Assembly: GCA_018649725.1 (NCBI GenBank)
Contig: JABIHH010000009.1
Coordinates: 1-64,000, forward strand
Length of the DNA stretch: 64,000 bases
Origin: Rhodospirillaceae bacterium
Lineage (GTDB): Bacteria; Pseudomonadota; Alphaproteobacteria; Rhodospirillales; UBA2165
Reading direction: 5' to 3'
A program made the translations under genes and the position numbers. The notes beneath the pieces were generated by a model, which was given only the letters and a program-made list of their open reading frames with translations, searched no databases and was not told the DNA's origin. This document shows, one piece after another, positions 23,212 to 43,524 of this stretch. Numbering within the stretch: position 1 is the first letter of the stretch; each line of letters opens with the position of its first letter.

Positions 23212-23889
23212 TTATTCAACAGCTTGGCGAAGGGCGGCGGCACTGGCCCAGGGACACAGCGCCAGACCGGCCAGCAATAGGCCGCTTAAAATCAGCAATT
23301 GCGGCTCACTCGGCAGATCGGTCAGCGCCGCATCGACGGCGCTCACACCAAAAATAAGTGTCGGGATAAACAGCGGCAGAATCAACAGCGACAATAAAAC
23401 ACCGCTGCGGCGGGCACCTAGTATAAGTGCTGCCCCAATCGCGCCGATCAAACTCAGCGTCGGTGTGCCGAGGGCGAGTGCTGCCAGCAACACGCCATAG
23501 CCCGACGCTTCCATATTGAGCAGCAGTGCCAAAAGCGGTGAGACAATAATCAGCGGTAGGCCGGTGGTCAGCCAATGGGCAATGGTTTTGGCCAGCACCA
23601 GCAACTCTAACGGCTGCGGGGTGAGGACCAAAAGATCGAGACTACCATCTTCGTAATCGGTCTGAAACAAACGGTCCATCGAGAGCATGGCGGAAAGCAG
23701 GGCGGCGACCCAAATTACGCCGGCGCTGATGCGGGTCAGGATGCCGGGTTCCGGGCCGACGCCAAGCGGGAACAGGACGACCACCAGCACAAAGAACATC
23801 ACCACCATCCAACTATCCGCGCCGTGGCGAATGGCGAGACGCAGCTCGCGCTTAATGAGAGAGTTAAAGACCTGGAAGAATGGGCTCAT
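23212..23889 (-). CDS. ccmB: haem exporter permease CcmB
   Basis: The 225-residue protein has about six hydrophobic segments and the CcmB-typical LLVLTPQPLELLVLAKTIAHWL motif. It forms the membrane part of the CcmAB ABC complex. The start overlaps the ccmA stop by 4 bp. Confidence 0.95.
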   Translation of the reverse strand: MSPFFQVFNSLIKRELRLAIRHGADSWMVVMFFVLVVVLFPLGVGPEPGILTRISAGVIWVAALLSAMLSMDRLFQTDYEDGSLDLLVLTPQPLELLVLAKTIAHWLTTGLPLIIVSPLLALLLNMEASGYGVLLAALALGTPTLSLIGAIGAALILGARRSGVLLSLLILPLFIPTLIFGVSAVDAALTDLPSEPQLLILSGLLLAGLALCPWASAAALRQAVE

Positions 23890-24527
23890 AAGGCGCCTCT
23901 ATTGGAGCTGGTAAATTCCGAGATATCCAAGATATTACTGTCAGACACCAATTCTTCGTGCGTCGCGACCGCGACCATGCCGCCTTTGTCTTGATGGGCG
24001 GCGATGGCATGGCGAAGCGCAACGACGGAATCTGTATCTAGCGAATTGGCGGGCTCGTCCAGCAACCAGAGCGGCGCAGCGCTGGCACAAATGCGGGCTA
24101 GATTGAGCCGTTTGCGCTGACCCGCCGATAAAAACCGGGCCGGTAGGGCCGCCAGATGGGTGAGCGAGAAAGTCTTGAGCGCGTCTCTGACCAGCCGTTT
24201 TTCCGGCTCTGCGCCACTCATCTCTGCCCAGAAAGTTAGATTTTCTTCCACCGTCAGAGCGGTCTTTACCGCATCTTGGTGGCCGACATAATGCAAGCGG
24301 CCGCGAAAAATTTCTGGATCATCGCGGGTGTTCTCACCGCCCCAAAGGAGCTCGCCACTAACCGGGCGCAGCAATCCGGCCATCAGGCGCAGCAGGGTTG
24401 ATTTGCCGCTGCCGTTTGGGCCCTGCAAATAGAGCACTTCACCTTCATCAATCGAGAATGCGAGCTTGGAAAACACCACCCGCTCGCCCCGAATACAGGT
24501 CAGATCTTGTCCAGTAAACTCAGCCAT
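23886..24527 (-). CDS. ccmA: haem exporter ATP-binding protein CcmA
   Basis: This 213-residue ABC ATPase has Walker A GPNGSGKST, an LSAGQRKRLNLAR signature and Walker B LWLLDEPANSLD. CcmA drives release of holo-CcmE from the CcmCDE complex. It is the first gene of ccmABCDEFGHI, and the Rieske gene lies 43 bp upstream on the same strand. Confidence 0.96.
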   Translation of the reverse strand: MAEFTGQDLTCIRGERVVFSKLAFSIDEGEVLYLQGPNGSGKSTLLRLMAGLLRPVSGELLWGGENTRDDPEIFRGRLHYVGHQDAVKTALTVEENLTFWAEMSGAEPEKRLVRDALKTFSLTHLAALPARFLSAGQRKRLNLARICASAAPLWLLDEPANSLDTDSVVALRHAIAAHQDKGGMVAVATHEELVSDSNILDISEFTSSNRGAL

Positions 24528-24570: not shown

Positions 24571-25731
24571 CTAGAAACCAAGTTCCGGTTCCACCGTCAT
24601 GGGTGACCAACTTGTCGTCGGCTCACCACTAGCGACAGCTAACATCTCCCGCTCAAAAACCTTCCGCATGGCGGCAATACCGATATCGGTTCGGCCCAAT
24701 AGTTCCTGGGAGCGGTCAACTATCTGCTCTTGCCCGGCCTGGGCCAGCCCATCTTCAAGCAGTAAAAGATGCGGGTGATCAAGATAGTCATTGATGTGGC
24801 CTTTGCCGGCCAAAATCTCATGGGTCAGCTCATGAATAGGTGGATATTTTTTGACCTTCTCGTTAAAGCGCTCATACATAGCGTGATAGGCGTCCATATC
24901 CTTTTCATCGATATGAACATTCATCGTGAAATAGACCCGGTGATTTTTATCATCCATCGGCACCAGAATAATATTGGTATCGCGCCAGCCGCCGACTTCC
25001 ATCAAATCGTTAAACGTCGGGATCATAATCCGCATGATATTGGGCAGCACGTAGTGAACTTTACGGGTCTTGCCGCCGCTTACTTTAGATTCGCGGATCA
25101 TGCCGTAATCGGTTTCATAAAAATTCATTTCCGGCAGCTCATAACGTCGCCCTAGTTTGTCATGGGAATCGCCAAAGGTATGAACGAAAGCAATATGAGT
25201 TTCATCAAAATGATTTTCCATGGTTTGAAACCAATTGCAGGGAAAAATCGTCGCATGATTTTCAATCACACCAATATCTTCATATTTTTTGAAAGGCGGG
25301 AAATGCGGCGGCTCGCCGTCACCGAAATAGGCATATATGAGGCCCAGAAATTCCTGTACGGGATATCCCGGGATATCGGCTTGGGGGAACGCTCCAGTGT
25401 TTTTTTCGCCCGGCCGTTCAACACAACAGCCGTTGCCGTCGAATTTCCAACCATGATACATGCATTGGAGGGTGTCGCCCTTGACCCAGCCGGTTGAGAG
25501 CTGTGCCGAGCGGTGGGAGCATCTATGGCCGACGACATGCGCCGTGCCCGTCTCACCCCGAAACAACGTGAACTCTTCATCCATCACTTGAACCGGCAGG
25601 GCTTGGCCGTTGGCGATTTCGCTCGATAGTCCGACGGGTTGCCAAAATTGCCGGAGGTATTTTCCGCCAATCGTGTCTGGTCCCGAGGCGACATAATCTG
25701 CCCAGCGGTCTTTGCCGTGTACTTGCTCCAT
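24571..25731 (-). CDS. Rieske [2Fe-2S] aromatic-ring-hydroxylating oxygenase, large subunit
   Basis: The Rieske ligands are CSH (in GHRCSHRSAQ) and CMYH (in LQCMYHGWKF). The mononuclear iron site reads ENHFDETHIAFVH, with Asp and two His. This matches phthalate-dioxygenase or vanillate-demethylase type enzymes of one polypeptide (about 386 residues). The start is the ATG at 25731, which has AGGA seven bases upstream. The ATG at 25737 is too close to that site, and the long track ORF runs into the structured RNA-like region. No reductase partner gene lies nearby, and the substrate is unknown. Confidence 0.87.
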   Translation of the reverse strand: MEQVHGKDRWADYVASGPDTIGGKYLRQFWQPVGLSSEIANGQALPVQVMDEEFTLFRGETGTAHVVGHRCSHRSAQLSTGWVKGDTLQCMYHGWKFDGNGCCVERPGEKNTGAFPQADIPGYPVQEFLGLIYAYFGDGEPPHFPPFKKYEDIGVIENHATIFPCNWFQTMENHFDETHIAFVHTFGDSHDKLGRRYELPEMNFYETDYGMIRESKVSGGKTRKVHYVLPNIMRIMIPTFNDLMEVGGWRDTNIILVPMDDKNHRVYFTMNVHIDEKDMDAYHAMYERFNEKVKKYPPIHELTHEILAGKGHINDYLDHPHLLLLEDGLAQAGQEQIVDRSQELLGRTDIGIAAMRKVFEREMLAVASGEPTTSWSPMTVEPELGF

Positions 25732-25886
25732 ATTCATATCCTGCCTGCTCGCTTTATTTTGGGAAGTTGATTTTACACTAAAAATATCTTGGGAACCAAT
25801 GAGGATAGGCCATTTAAATTTTAACCTTGAGATGCTCGGCCAACCGAATGGCGAGAAGCGGTGATTTAATACGAGAGGAAAAAGCC

Positions 25887-26025
25887 AAAAAAAGCGGCTG
25901 GAAAGAGGTGTCTCAGGGGAGGGACGCTTTCCAGCCGTTAGTTTTTGGCAGTCGAGCCTGCCTATAGGGGGTAAGAGAGCCAAAAGGGTTTTGGTACTCT
26001 CTTGGTATCAGGAGGCCTGATGCGA
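25887..26025 (-). ncRNA. candidate small RNA with C-rich loops and intrinsic terminator
   Basis: No ORF is convincing in the 494 bp between the Rieske gene and acnA. Read on minus, four perfect or near-perfect hairpins follow one another: ATCAGG/CCTGAT (26007-26021), AAGAGAGCC.../CTCTCTT (25973-26003), GGCAG/CTGCC (25947-25962) and an 11-bp CGGCTGGAAAG/CTTTCCAGCCG stem (25895-25937). The last is followed by T7 (25887-25893), making an intrinsic terminator on minus. Loops and linkers are C-rich on this strand (CCTCC, CCCCCTAT, CCCTCCCC), as in C-rich-loop small RNAs known from other alphaproteobacteria. It is either an independent sRNA or a terminated leader of the Rieske gene. The remaining 200 bp (26026-26225) presumably hold the acnA promoter. 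Confidence 0.6.
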
Positions 26026-26225
26026 AACAGTAAAGCGCCCAATTGTGTCGAGAATAAGCTGATATTGTAACGATTTTGTGTTTAATTATTTCCGATTTAG
26101 CTTAAAAATAATCGCAAAAGCCCTTTCTGGGCTGGAAAATACCCACTTCTTAGTGTAGGCAAGGCCTCAATTCAGTAAACCCATTATAAACCGCATTTAA
26201 ATCACCAAATTTGGAGGAGAGCCGT

Positions 26226-28907
26226 ATGTCGAAAGTCGGCCAGGACACCCTAAACACCCGCCGCACGTTAAGTGCCGCTGGTAAAGACTATGATTATTTT
26301 AGCCTGGAGGCTGCTTCAGAAGCCGGCCTCGGCGATATCTCCCGTCTGCCGTTTTCCTTAAAAGTTCTGCTGGAAAATCTGCTGCGCTATGAAGATGGCA
26401 ATACGGTCACGGTGGATGATGTTAAAGCGCTTGGTGCCTGGCTTGAAAGTAAAAGCTCGGACCGCGAAATTGCCTATCGTCCAGCGCGTGTTTTGCTGCA
26501 GGATTTCACCGGCGTTCCGGCCGTGGTTGATCTGGCCGCGATGCGCCAAGCCATGAAAGACCTCGGTGGTGATCCACAAAAAATTAATCCGCTGAGCCCG
26601 GTTGATCTGGTGATCGACCACTCGGTGATGATCGATAATTTTGGAACTGAAGAAGCATTTGACGCTAACGTCGAAAAGGAATTTGAGCGCAACCAGGAAC
26701 GCTATGAGTTCCTCCGCTGGGGTTCTGTAGCGTTTGATAATTTCCGTGTTGTGCCGCCCGGAACCGGCATTTGCCATCAGGTGAATCTCGAATTCCTATC
26801 GCAAACCGTTTGGACCGATGAAGTTGACGGCAAGACGGTTGCTTATCCGGATACGCTGGTGGGTACCGATAGTCATACCACCATGGTCAATGGCTTGGCT
26901 GTCCTGGGCTGGGGTGTCGGTGGTATCGAAGCCGAAGCGGCTATGCTGGGACAACCCGTTTCCATGTTGGTGCCCGAAGTTATTGGCTTCAAGCTGACGG
27001 GAGAGATGAAAGAAGGCACCACTGCCACGGATCTCGTGCTGCGTGTTGTGCAAATGCTGCGTGAAAAAGGTGTGGTTGGTAAATTCGTCGAATTCTTTGG
27101 CCCGGCTTTGGATAGTCTCAGCCTGCCGGATCGCGCGACGCTCGCCAATATGGCGCCGGAATATGGTGCGACGTGCGGCATCTTCCCCATCGATGAAGAA
27201 ACCATTCGCTTCTTGAAATTCACCTCCCGTGATGCCGATCGGGTGGCCTTGGTTGAAGAATATGCCAAAGCCCAAGGCATGTGGCGGGATGCCTCAACAC
27301 CGGATCCTGAGTTCTCTGATACCTTGGAGCTTGATATCTCTGGCGTTGAGCCCTCAATCTCGGGTCCAAAGCGGCCGCAAGATCGTATTGCGCTTTCCGA
27401 TGCCGCACCGGCTTTCCAGGAAACCTTGGATGCTGTTGGCCGCGGCAAAGGTCCGCAAGATGCCTCAGGTGAAGACTACAAAGTCCAGGATGGCGATGTT
27501 GTTATTGCGTCGATCACTTCTTGCACCAACACATCTAACCCCAGCGTTTTGATGGCTGCGGGTCTGGTGGCGCAAAAAGCTAATGCGCTTGGCCTTAAGC
27601 CAAAGCCCTGGGTTAAAACTTCGCTCGCTCCCGGTAGTCAGGTGGTCTCGGATTATCTCGAACATGCCGGCTTGCAAGGCGATCTTGATGCACTTGGCTT
27701 CAATGTCGTTGGTTATGGTTGCACGACGTGTATCGGTAACTCCGGTCCATTGCCGGAGCCGGTCGATCAAGCCATCACCGAGGGTGACCTCACGGTCTGT
27801 GCGGTGCTATCCGGTAACCGGAATTTCGAGGGCCGGATTCACGCCCAGATTAAAACCAATTACCTCGCCTCACCGCCGCTGGTTGTCGCTTATGCGTTGG
27901 CCGGCTCTATGACCCGCGATCTCTATAATGATCCCTTGGGCAAAGACAAGGACAGCAATCCGGTTTATCTCAAAGACATCTGGCCGACCAATAAAGAGGT
28001 CAGTGATGCGGTGATGAACCACATCACGCCGGACATGTTTGCAACCCGCTACGGTGATACGGTTTGGCAAGGTCCACAACAATGGCAGGATATTCAAGCC
28101 GAAGGGTCTGAGACCTATGATTGGCAGGAAGCATCCACTTACGTCAAATACCCAAGCTTCTTTGAAGGCATGGAAGATGAGCCGGGTGACTTCTCAGATA
28201 TTGAAGGCGCGCGGCAATTGGCTGTACTGGGCGATTCAATCACGACCGATCACATCTCTCCGGCCGGCGCGATCAAAGAGGATAGCCCTGCTGGTTCCTA
28301 CCTCACCGATCGTCAGGTGCGGACCCAAGACTTCAACTCTTTTGGCTCACGCCGGGGTAACCACGAAGTTATGATGCGCGGCACGTTTGCCAATATCCGT
28401 ATCAAAAACGAAATGGCGCCGGGGACCGAAGGTGGTGTGACCAAACATCAGCCTTCCGGTGAGGATATGTCGATCTATGACGCGGCGATGAAATACGCCG
28501 ATGAAGGCGTGCCGTTGGTGATTATTGGTGGCTCGCTTTACGGCAATGGCTCATCGCGTGACTGGGCAGCCAAAGGCACAACATTGCTTGGCGTCAAAGC
28601 GGTCATCGTTGAAAGCTTCGAGCGCATCCACCGCTCCAACCTCGTAGGCATGGGCGTTCTACCGCTGCAATTTAAAGAAGGTCAGAGCCGCCAGACGCTT
28701 AAACTCGATGGGTCGGAAGTTTTCGACATCACCGGTATTAAAGACGGTATTGATCCGCGCATGGACGTGCCGTGCAAGATCACTCGGGCTGATGGGACTA
28801 GCGAAGAAATTTCTTTGCTGTGCCGGATAGATACCGCAGATGAGGTTGAATACTACCGTCACGGCGGTATTCTTCAGTATGTTCTGAGGAATCTGAAAGC
28901 AGCCTAG
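26226..28907 (+). CDS. acnA: aconitate hydratase A
   Basis: The protein is 893 residues, with the three [4Fe-4S] Cys ligands in [11 protein letters not shown] and [11 protein letters not shown], the swivel-domain [17 protein letters not shown] motif, and [14 protein letters not shown]. It isomerises citrate to isocitrate. The ATG at 26226 (MSKVGQD) follows GGAGGAGA, so the track start (TTG, five codons earlier) is rejected as lying in the RBS. It is monocistronic and followed by an intrinsic terminator. A structured RNA-like locus lies upstream on the other strand. Confidence 0.98.
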
Positions 28908-40978: not shown

Positions 40979-41620
40979 ATGGCAACCAAAATTCGTTTAT
41001 CGCGAGGTGGCGCAAAAAAGCGTCCGTTTTACCGTATTGTTGTGGCAGATAGTCGTTCTCCCCGTGACGGTCGGTTCATCGAACGTGTTGGTACATACAA
41101 TCCGATGGTCGCGAAAGATCACCCGGAACGCATCGTTCTTAAAGAAGAGCGTATCAAACACTGGCTCTCCAATGGCGCTTTGCCGACAAACCGTGTTGCG
41201 CGGTTCTTAGGCGACGCCGATATCATCGAAAAGCCAACTTACGCCGAGCAGACCAAACAACATCTGCCACGTGAAAAGACTTTGGAGAAGATGAGAGAGA
41301 AAGAAGAAGCTCAGAAAGCCGCTCAAGAAGCAGCGGCTCAAGAAGCCGAAGCGGCTGCGGCGGCTCCAACGGAAGCTGAAGCTGCAGAAGAAGCGCCAGC
41401 AGAAGAGGCTGCGGCTGAGGAAGCTCCAGCAGAAGAGGCTGCGGCTGAGGAAGCTCCAGCAGAAGAGGCTGCGGCTGAGGAAGCTCCAGCAGAAGAAGCT
41501 CCAGCAGAAGAAGCTGCGGCAGAAGAAGCTCCAGCGGAAGAAGCTGCAGCAGAAGAAGCTCTAGCGGAAGAAGCTCCAGCAGAAGAAGCTGCGGCAGAAG
41601 AGGAAAATAAAGACGGCTAA
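40979..41620 (+). CDS. rpsP: ribosomal protein S16 with long acidic Ala/Glu tail
   Basis: The first ~85 residues are a normal S16 ([35 protein letters not shown]). S16 is normally about 80-110 residues, but this ORF is 213. From about residue 105 it is an uninterrupted (A,E,P)-rich tail, mainly [10 protein letters not shown] blocks. The underlying DNA has an exact 30-bp unit repeated three times plus diverged copies. S16 sits near the 16S rRNA body, so a tail this acidic would extend from the 30S surface. The start has an AGAGGAAAG RBS. rimM follows after 6 bp. Confidence 0.97.
41401..41490. repeat. three exact 30-bp tandem repeats within rpsP
   Basis: The 30-bp unit beginning AGAAGAGGCTGCGGCTGAGG is identical at 41401, 41431 and 41461, and diverged copies continue to about 41600. 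It encodes [10 protein letters not shown]-type blocks. Identical repeats suggest recent slippage or recombination, so tail length may vary between strains. Confidence 0.95.
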
Positions 41621-42987: not shown

Positions 42988-43524
42988 ATGAATCTTTTAC
43001 AAGAAATCGAGCAAGAGCAAATTGCTAAGCTGAGCGCTGATAAAGCAATGCCGAAATTTGCCCCAGGCGATACTGTCAAAGTAAACGTCAAAGTGGTCGA
43101 AGGTACGCGTGAGCGTATTCAGGCTTACGAAGGCGTCTGCATTGCCCGTAAAAACGATGGTCTCCATTCGAACTTTACGGTTCGCAAAATCTCTTATGGT
43201 GAAGGTGTTGAACGTGTGTTCCCGCTTTACTCGCCGAATGTAGATAGTGTCGAGATTTTGCGCCGTGGTGATGTTCGCCGGGCCAAACTCTATTATCTTC
43301 GTGGTCGCCAAGGTAAGCGTGCGCGTATTGCTGAGCGTACCGATGGTTACGCAGCTAAGCTCTCCGCGTCTGATCGCGAAACAGCATTGGTTGAAAAAGA
43401 AGCTAATAAAGCAGCAAGTGCAAAAAAGAAATCAGCGAAAGCAGAAGCGCCAGTAGAGGCTCCGGCCGAAACTCCAGCAGAAGAAGTCGTTGAGGAGCAA
43501 GTAGAAGATAAGACCGAAGATTAA
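42988..43524 (+). CDS. rplS: ribosomal protein L19 with C-terminal extension
   Basis: The L19 core is clear: [30 protein letters not shown] and [41 protein letters not shown]. The usual length is about 115-130 residues, and this one has 178. The last ~50 residues are a Lys/Ala then Pro/Ala/Glu-rich tail ([20 protein letters not shown]...) ending in VEDKTED. S16 in the same operon also has an Ala/Glu tail. A 36-bp gap with GAGGAAAAGA precedes it. Confidence 0.97.

Follow-up and report, generated by a model that had tools for sequence, protein, structure and literature searches.

Sequence comparison indicates that the minus strand of the window, a 64,000-nt stretch of DNA from a Rhodospirillaceae bacterium, encodes a member of a real and structurally well-supported small RNA (sRNA) family that is absent from Rfam. 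Relatives across much of the bacterial order retain its four hairpins, its C-rich loops and its switch-like promoter. We consider it probable, at odds of about two in three, that the gene specifies an independent trans-acting sRNA that is activated by ChvG-ChvI and pairs through its C-rich loops with Shine-Dalgarno regions.

A four-hairpin RNA next to acnA

An earlier note, written from the letters of the window, had described four minus-strand stems within 139 nt, the last of them an intrinsic terminator with U7. Folding of these 139 nt (minus 26025-25887) gave four successive hairpins with a minimum free energy (MFE) of -48.9 kcal/mol, compared with -29.2 ± 3.5 kcal/mol for 200 dinucleotide shuffles, none of which matched the native fold (z = -5.6). 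This fold, together with covariation in 91 homologues, bears the description out. Given the predicted +1, the sRNA would be ~135 nt long (Table 1). The stem of the terminator hairpin H4 is built from CGGCUGGAAAG and CUUUCCAGCCG, followed by GC and the U7 tract.

Table 1. Features of the sRNA locus, in window coordinates
Feature	Position	Strand	Basis or remark
Possible third tandem half-site TACAAT	26064..26069	-	Another 11 bp upstream; read in sequence
Activator element AGCTTATTCTCGACACAATT, at -35 position	26041..26060	-	Half-sites CTTATT + CACAAT 11 bp apart; PWM 21.3, best site in the window
-10 box TTTACT	26029..26034	-	10 nt after GACAC core, 7 nt before the A starting H1 (aligned copies)
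sRNA gene	25887..26021	-	Predicted +1 at 26021; covariance model and BLASTN homologues
Hairpin H1 AUCAGG-CCU-CCUGAU	26007..26021	-	Fold; 6/6 pairs with double changes across the family
Hairpin H2, stem AAGAGAG/CUCUCUU, variable apex	25973..26003	-	Fold; 7/7 pairs with double changes
C-rich linker ACCCCCUAUA, unpaired	25963..25972	-	Fold; columns almost invariant in alignment A1
Hairpin H3 GGCAG...CUGCC	25947..25962	-	Fold; 6/6 pairs with double changes
Hairpin H4, intrinsic terminator stem with C-rich loop	25895..25937	-	Fold; 11/11 pairs with double changes
Terminator U7 tract	25887..25893	-	Sequence
acnA (aconitase), divergent neighbour	26226..28907	+	Pfam PF00330/PF00694
Rieske oxygenase gene, between sRNA and ccmA	24571..25734	-	Pfam PF00355; neighbour comparison
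ccmA, positional marker of the sRNA family	23886..24527	-	tblastn

BLASTN found homologues at 78-83% identity in four genomes of the same genus and partial matches in other genera of the family, and acnA-side intergenic regions extracted from relatives showed the same architecture. A covariance model built from six short copies with the window RNA outside the training set (R1) matched the window RNA at E = 2.1e-9 and also reached further families. A second model (R2), trained on 24 sequences including the window RNA, gave a match in the window's genome at E = 1.5e-13. Of 317 genomes from the order, R2 matched 99 at E <= 0.01, the weakest of these matches being chance, and a class-wide genome sample yielded few covariance-model matches. 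Members include 'Rhodospirillales/Rhodospirillaceae bacterium' MAGs and one 'Caenispirillum' MAG. Matches without promoter and expected neighbours were rejected as false positives, both for R1 (L069, L074-L076) and for R2 (L154, L158, L160, L164). At L069, positions 1501-1612, the weak R1 match lies away from acnA/ccmA and marks another candidate RNA, with several C-rich hairpins and a terminator.

MAFFT put H2 out of register when long forms were aligned with short ones, so we worked from the model-based alignments A3 and A6. Covariation across relatives, proposed as a check in the earlier note, was found throughout: in 91 model-aligned copies, 92.9% of cells are paired, all 30 base pairs carry at least one double, compensatory change, and all four helices are supported. 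Double-change cells numbered 503, against 135 ± 11 in shuffled and 45-97 in slid structures; the alignment was fitted to the model and hence leans towards it, with both controls far off. An earlier 24-copy alignment gave the same covariation picture. At gathering score, Rfam 15 returned only a tRNA elsewhere in the window and nothing for 20 order loci and 20 class-level loci, and a permissive scan of the sRNA locus gave only below-threshold miRNA hairpin matches on the opposite strand. Among openly readable papers, we found none on an sRNA at acnA/ccmA; the M. gryphiswaldense transcriptome lists a single Rfam sRNA, BjrC80 (PMC9549626).

Across the family, C makes up 48% of the unpaired and 30% of the paired residues, and G 4% of the unpaired ones; in 78 of 82 RNAs, two or more unpaired segments carry a CYCC/CCYC motif. 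Recurrent among homologues are CCCCC, often in the H2 loop, a linker of the ACCCCCUAUA type and a C-rich terminator loop. H1 in another family reads AUAGAC-CUCCUC-GUCUAU, compared with the AUCAGG-CCU-CCUGAU of the window's family. The C-rich stretches first described are there, with one correction. The ACCCCCUAUA linker is unpaired and CCCUCCCC (25923-25916) belongs to the terminator loop, although the MFE structure pairs part of it weakly; the H1 loop is CCU only and the next CC is in the stem.

The divergent neighbour had been correctly named as acnA, with Pfam identifying an aconitase. When flanks of 1.5-2.5 kb were inspected at the 91 loci, ccmA was found downstream on the same strand in 73 (tblastn); 28 had acnA upstream, all but one of these in divergent orientation (27). 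In the window, ccm genes continue beyond ccmA. The Rieske oxygenase gene is not at the sRNA-ccmA gap in the same-genus relatives examined, and because these carry nothing or other genes in its place, the gap accepts inserted genes. The RNA lies on the same strand as ccmA and 140-300 nt upstream of it in most loci, so read-through is possible, and it might be a 5' leader or attenuator of the downstream gene (mostly ccmA, here the Rieske gene) with signal-dependent read-through past the terminator. However, a convergent gene of ~204 aa ends at the sRNA terminator in two genomes of the same genus (L058 and L062), the downstream gene is likewise convergent to the sRNA in L049, L110 and L137, and acnA and ccmA stand back to back, without sRNA or promoter motif, in G004, G007, G014 and G021. 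In addition, no alternative antiterminator pairing was apparent by eye in the folds inspected. A ccmA riboswitch or attenuator was rejected on the convergent next gene and on the retention of ccmA where the RNA is absent, and the terminated leader that the earlier note had allowed for is, in the broader form given here, very unlikely. That the hairpins are chance or a coding artefact can practically be dismissed: a mechanical ORF does extend the Rieske frame to a TTG, spanning 24571-25983, but covariation contradicts such an origin, the promoter is conserved, and the Rieske gene is absent from the locus in relatives bearing the RNA.

Because the downstream gene is convergent in relatives and the sRNA has been lost with acnA and ccmA kept, we regard the sRNA as a gene of its own. 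Its own promoter, conserved structure, intrinsic terminator and separability from its neighbours strongly support this assignment, and the original proposal of an sRNA gene is upheld by the covariation, by the conserved dedicated promoter and terminator and by the C-rich, G-poor unpaired segments. The sRNA is also missing next to acnA in G001 and G002. In AT-rich relatives (L299, L300, L303, L304), sRNA and promoter are cleanly gone and acnA adjoins ccmA. The product of the convergent gene in L058/L062 starts with MTTVLVLFHSVTGSTYRLAEAIAAG and appears flavodoxin/WrbA-like by eye.

A promoter element in common with chvI

Across the family, the promoter is ordered as a GCCAC core, 10 nt, a TNNAAT-like -10 box, 7 nt and the A that begins H1. 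The tandem element GSCATAAWNYCGCCACAWTY precedes the -10 box by 10 nt in 83 of 91 copies. No TTGACA is found at -35; CATAAW and CACAWT stand there instead, 11 bp apart. Such tandem 11-bp half-sites at -35 are the geometry of promoters activated by the OmpR/PhoB family, and the E. coli Pho box is arranged in this way too. In the window, a site at 26082 that overlaps the possible third half-site scores 5.9 with the position weight matrix (PWM), and similar upstream repeats occur in family members. Promoters of M. gryphiswaldense have a TATaaT box, with transcription beginning at an A 6-9 nt beyond it (PMC9549626), in keeping with the sRNA promoter.

Because a short exact promoter pattern showed no enrichment in the own genome (8 matches, against 7 for the reversed pattern), we adopted a PWM, built from the sRNA promoters. 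Its background amounts to 9 sites per 288 kb of strand, known sites included. One match, at 43262 on the minus strand, falls within a ribosomal L19-like gene in antisense orientation and was taken as chance. Elsewhere in the window, a ribosomal protein S16-like gene (40979-41620, +) has a long repetitive terminal tail.

A motif scan of 120 genomes of the order found mostly one site per genome, the sRNA promoter itself, and one site directly upstream of a ChvI-ChvG pair (L210). At a PWM cut-off of >= 8, the element was present upstream of chvI in 20 of 30 genomes, with a rate of 0.5% in shuffles, and in none of 27 upstream regions of phoB-type regulator genes, which served as controls. The own genome has ACTATATTTTTGACACAATT at chvI compared with AGCTTATTCTCGACACAATT at the sRNA, both with the GACAC variant. 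Within the window's family, the chvI element is kept in all 13 other sRNA-bearing genomes (scores 10-22) and decayed in four with confirmed sRNA loss (scores -7.6 to 3.2); two genomes of unknown sRNA status keep it. Among the AT-rich relatives L299, L300, L303 and L304, the three with a chvI match (G004, G007, G014) show this decay. As chvI itself is present in several relatives without the sRNA, ChvI does not require the sRNA, and as the losses fall in related, mostly AT-rich genomes, loss of the sRNA and decay of the chvI element may share one cause.

The element core, GSC-N8-GCC, is consistent with N-GCC-N8-GCC, the consensus for S. meliloti ChvI as quoted in PMC9731502, and is unlike the C. 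crescentus ChvI motif predicted in the same paper, TTGC-N3-GCAA. CenR (TGA-N8-TGA) does not fit the element and was rejected as regulator. Upstream of a gene for a SIMPL-domain periplasmic protein in the own genome (L079, contig C18), the element scores 18.7, making this gene a candidate for the same regulon. With one mismatch, it precedes a small lipoprotein gene (LAGCQNMQD) in another family (f2; L174, L176, L211). These further element-bearing genes have envelope functions, as expected for ChvI.

Judged from these motif matches, the sRNA promoter has a ChvI-type site in common with chvI, and because the same element stands before chvI itself, the regulator is most likely ChvI, whose control of the sRNA we strongly infer. 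Iron or TCA control, suggested earlier, found no supporting signal; the element common to both promoters suggests ChvG-ChvI, a two-component system of the envelope, instead.

A model for sRNA activation and action

In our model, transcription from 26021 would open with H1, pass through three more conserved hairpins and end at the RNA's own terminator. The sigma70-type promoter, which has no -35 hexamer, would very probably be activated by an OmpR/PhoB-family response regulator on two or three tandem half-sites, most likely ChvI, which acts with ChvG in envelope stress. When the envelope is stressed (low pH, osmotic or cell-wall damage), the RNA might then accumulate, and its CCUCC/CCCCC segments might mask the Shine-Dalgarno regions of several mRNAs, which probably encode envelope proteins, and lower their translation. 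Translational repression through Shine-Dalgarno pairing is plausible and would be a natural role for such loops (compare PMC3927594, PMC5869019, PMC12559287). A target prediction across the window was not specific: the segments paired better with translation starts than with coding sequence, but shuffled C-rich segments did equally well in two of four cases, and the starts had partly been chosen by their Shine-Dalgarno sequence.

Both halves of this model have an alternative. The sRNA may be real and the element belong to another OmpR-family regulator that controls both the sRNA and chvI, as tandem 11-bp half-sites suit the whole OmpR/PhoB class, the Pho box included, and the published C. crescentus motif differs. 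Yet the element is found at chvI itself, as autoregulation predicts, is absent at phoB-type genes and agrees with the S. meliloti consensus, which makes a different regulator unlikely, if worth keeping in mind. The RNA might also act as a sponge or protein-binding RNA, its C-rich, G-free loops titrating an RNA-binding protein or another sRNA instead of binding mRNA leaders. Several repeated C-rich loops per RNA would suit this role, and Caulobacter CrfA sponges a family of sRNAs with a CCUCCC core (PMC12559287). However, the loops can pair with Shine-Dalgarno sequences by complementarity, as C-rich loops of alphaproteobacterial sRNAs commonly do, and no protein-binding motif was identified. 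We consider titration improbable.

Known sRNAs and copies beyond the order

Control of an sRNA by ChvI, the reading we favour, has its model in ChvR of Caulobacter crescentus, which acts in trans and depends on ChvI-ChvG for activation. Located upstream of recF, ChvR is reportedly confined to C. crescentus (PMC6237742); the present RNA differs in locus, standing at acnA/ccmA in many families. SmelA075/SmelA099 of the Rhizobiales (PMC3927594) similarly have several hairpins with anti-Shine-Dalgarno C-rich loops and variable stems, but carry a CCUCCUCCC loop in every hairpin, whereas the loops here differ (CCU or CUCCUC, CCCCC and a CCCCCUAU linker). Membership of this type was rejected, as CCUCCUCCC is absent from the window RNA and the Rfam scan was negative. 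The alpha-R8 family (MmgR, SisA-D; PMC12559287) is comparable in being spread across the class Alphaproteobacteria and in combining a pyrimidine core, there UUUCCUCCCU, with a terminator. Unlike the present RNA, it has one weak hairpin plus terminator and usually lies beside an N-formylglutamate amidohydrolase gene; with the UUUCCUCCCU core absent and acnA and ccmA as neighbours, this assignment was also rejected. GsrN (PMC5869019) is stress-regulated and pairs through an exposed C-rich loop with a G-rich mRNA leader, but is controlled by SigT and usually found near the general stress locus; promoter and position differ. The logic proposed here is analogous to that of enterobacterial OmrA/OmrB, sRNAs activated by EnvZ-OmpR that lower outer-membrane proteins (PMC12559287); lineage, structure and seed differ, and we do not claim homology.

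Upstream of ccmA in other orders (L086-L088, L270, L275, L279, L282, L289, L293), we found a promoter-like element, C-rich hairpins and a terminator at the corresponding position. Most of these copies are beyond the reach of R2; position and promoter make their homology with the order's family likely. The diverged copies fit a wider proposal, which we put forward tentatively and hold at somewhat below even odds: that an ancient alphaproteobacterial envelope-stress sRNA at acnA-ccmA, activated by ChvI, silences many envelope mRNAs through several anti-Shine-Dalgarno loops, as a counterpart of the enterobacterial sRNAs controlled by sigmaE or OmpR. Many alphaproteobacteria rely on ChvG-ChvI to control envelope stress, symbiosis and virulence, yet ChvR, reported as confined to one species, is the only ChvI-controlled sRNA in the literature examined. 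A deeply conserved sRNA with a ChvI-type promoter would give that response an RNA arm, mark the ChvI regulon throughout the order and offer a ChvI site open to testing.
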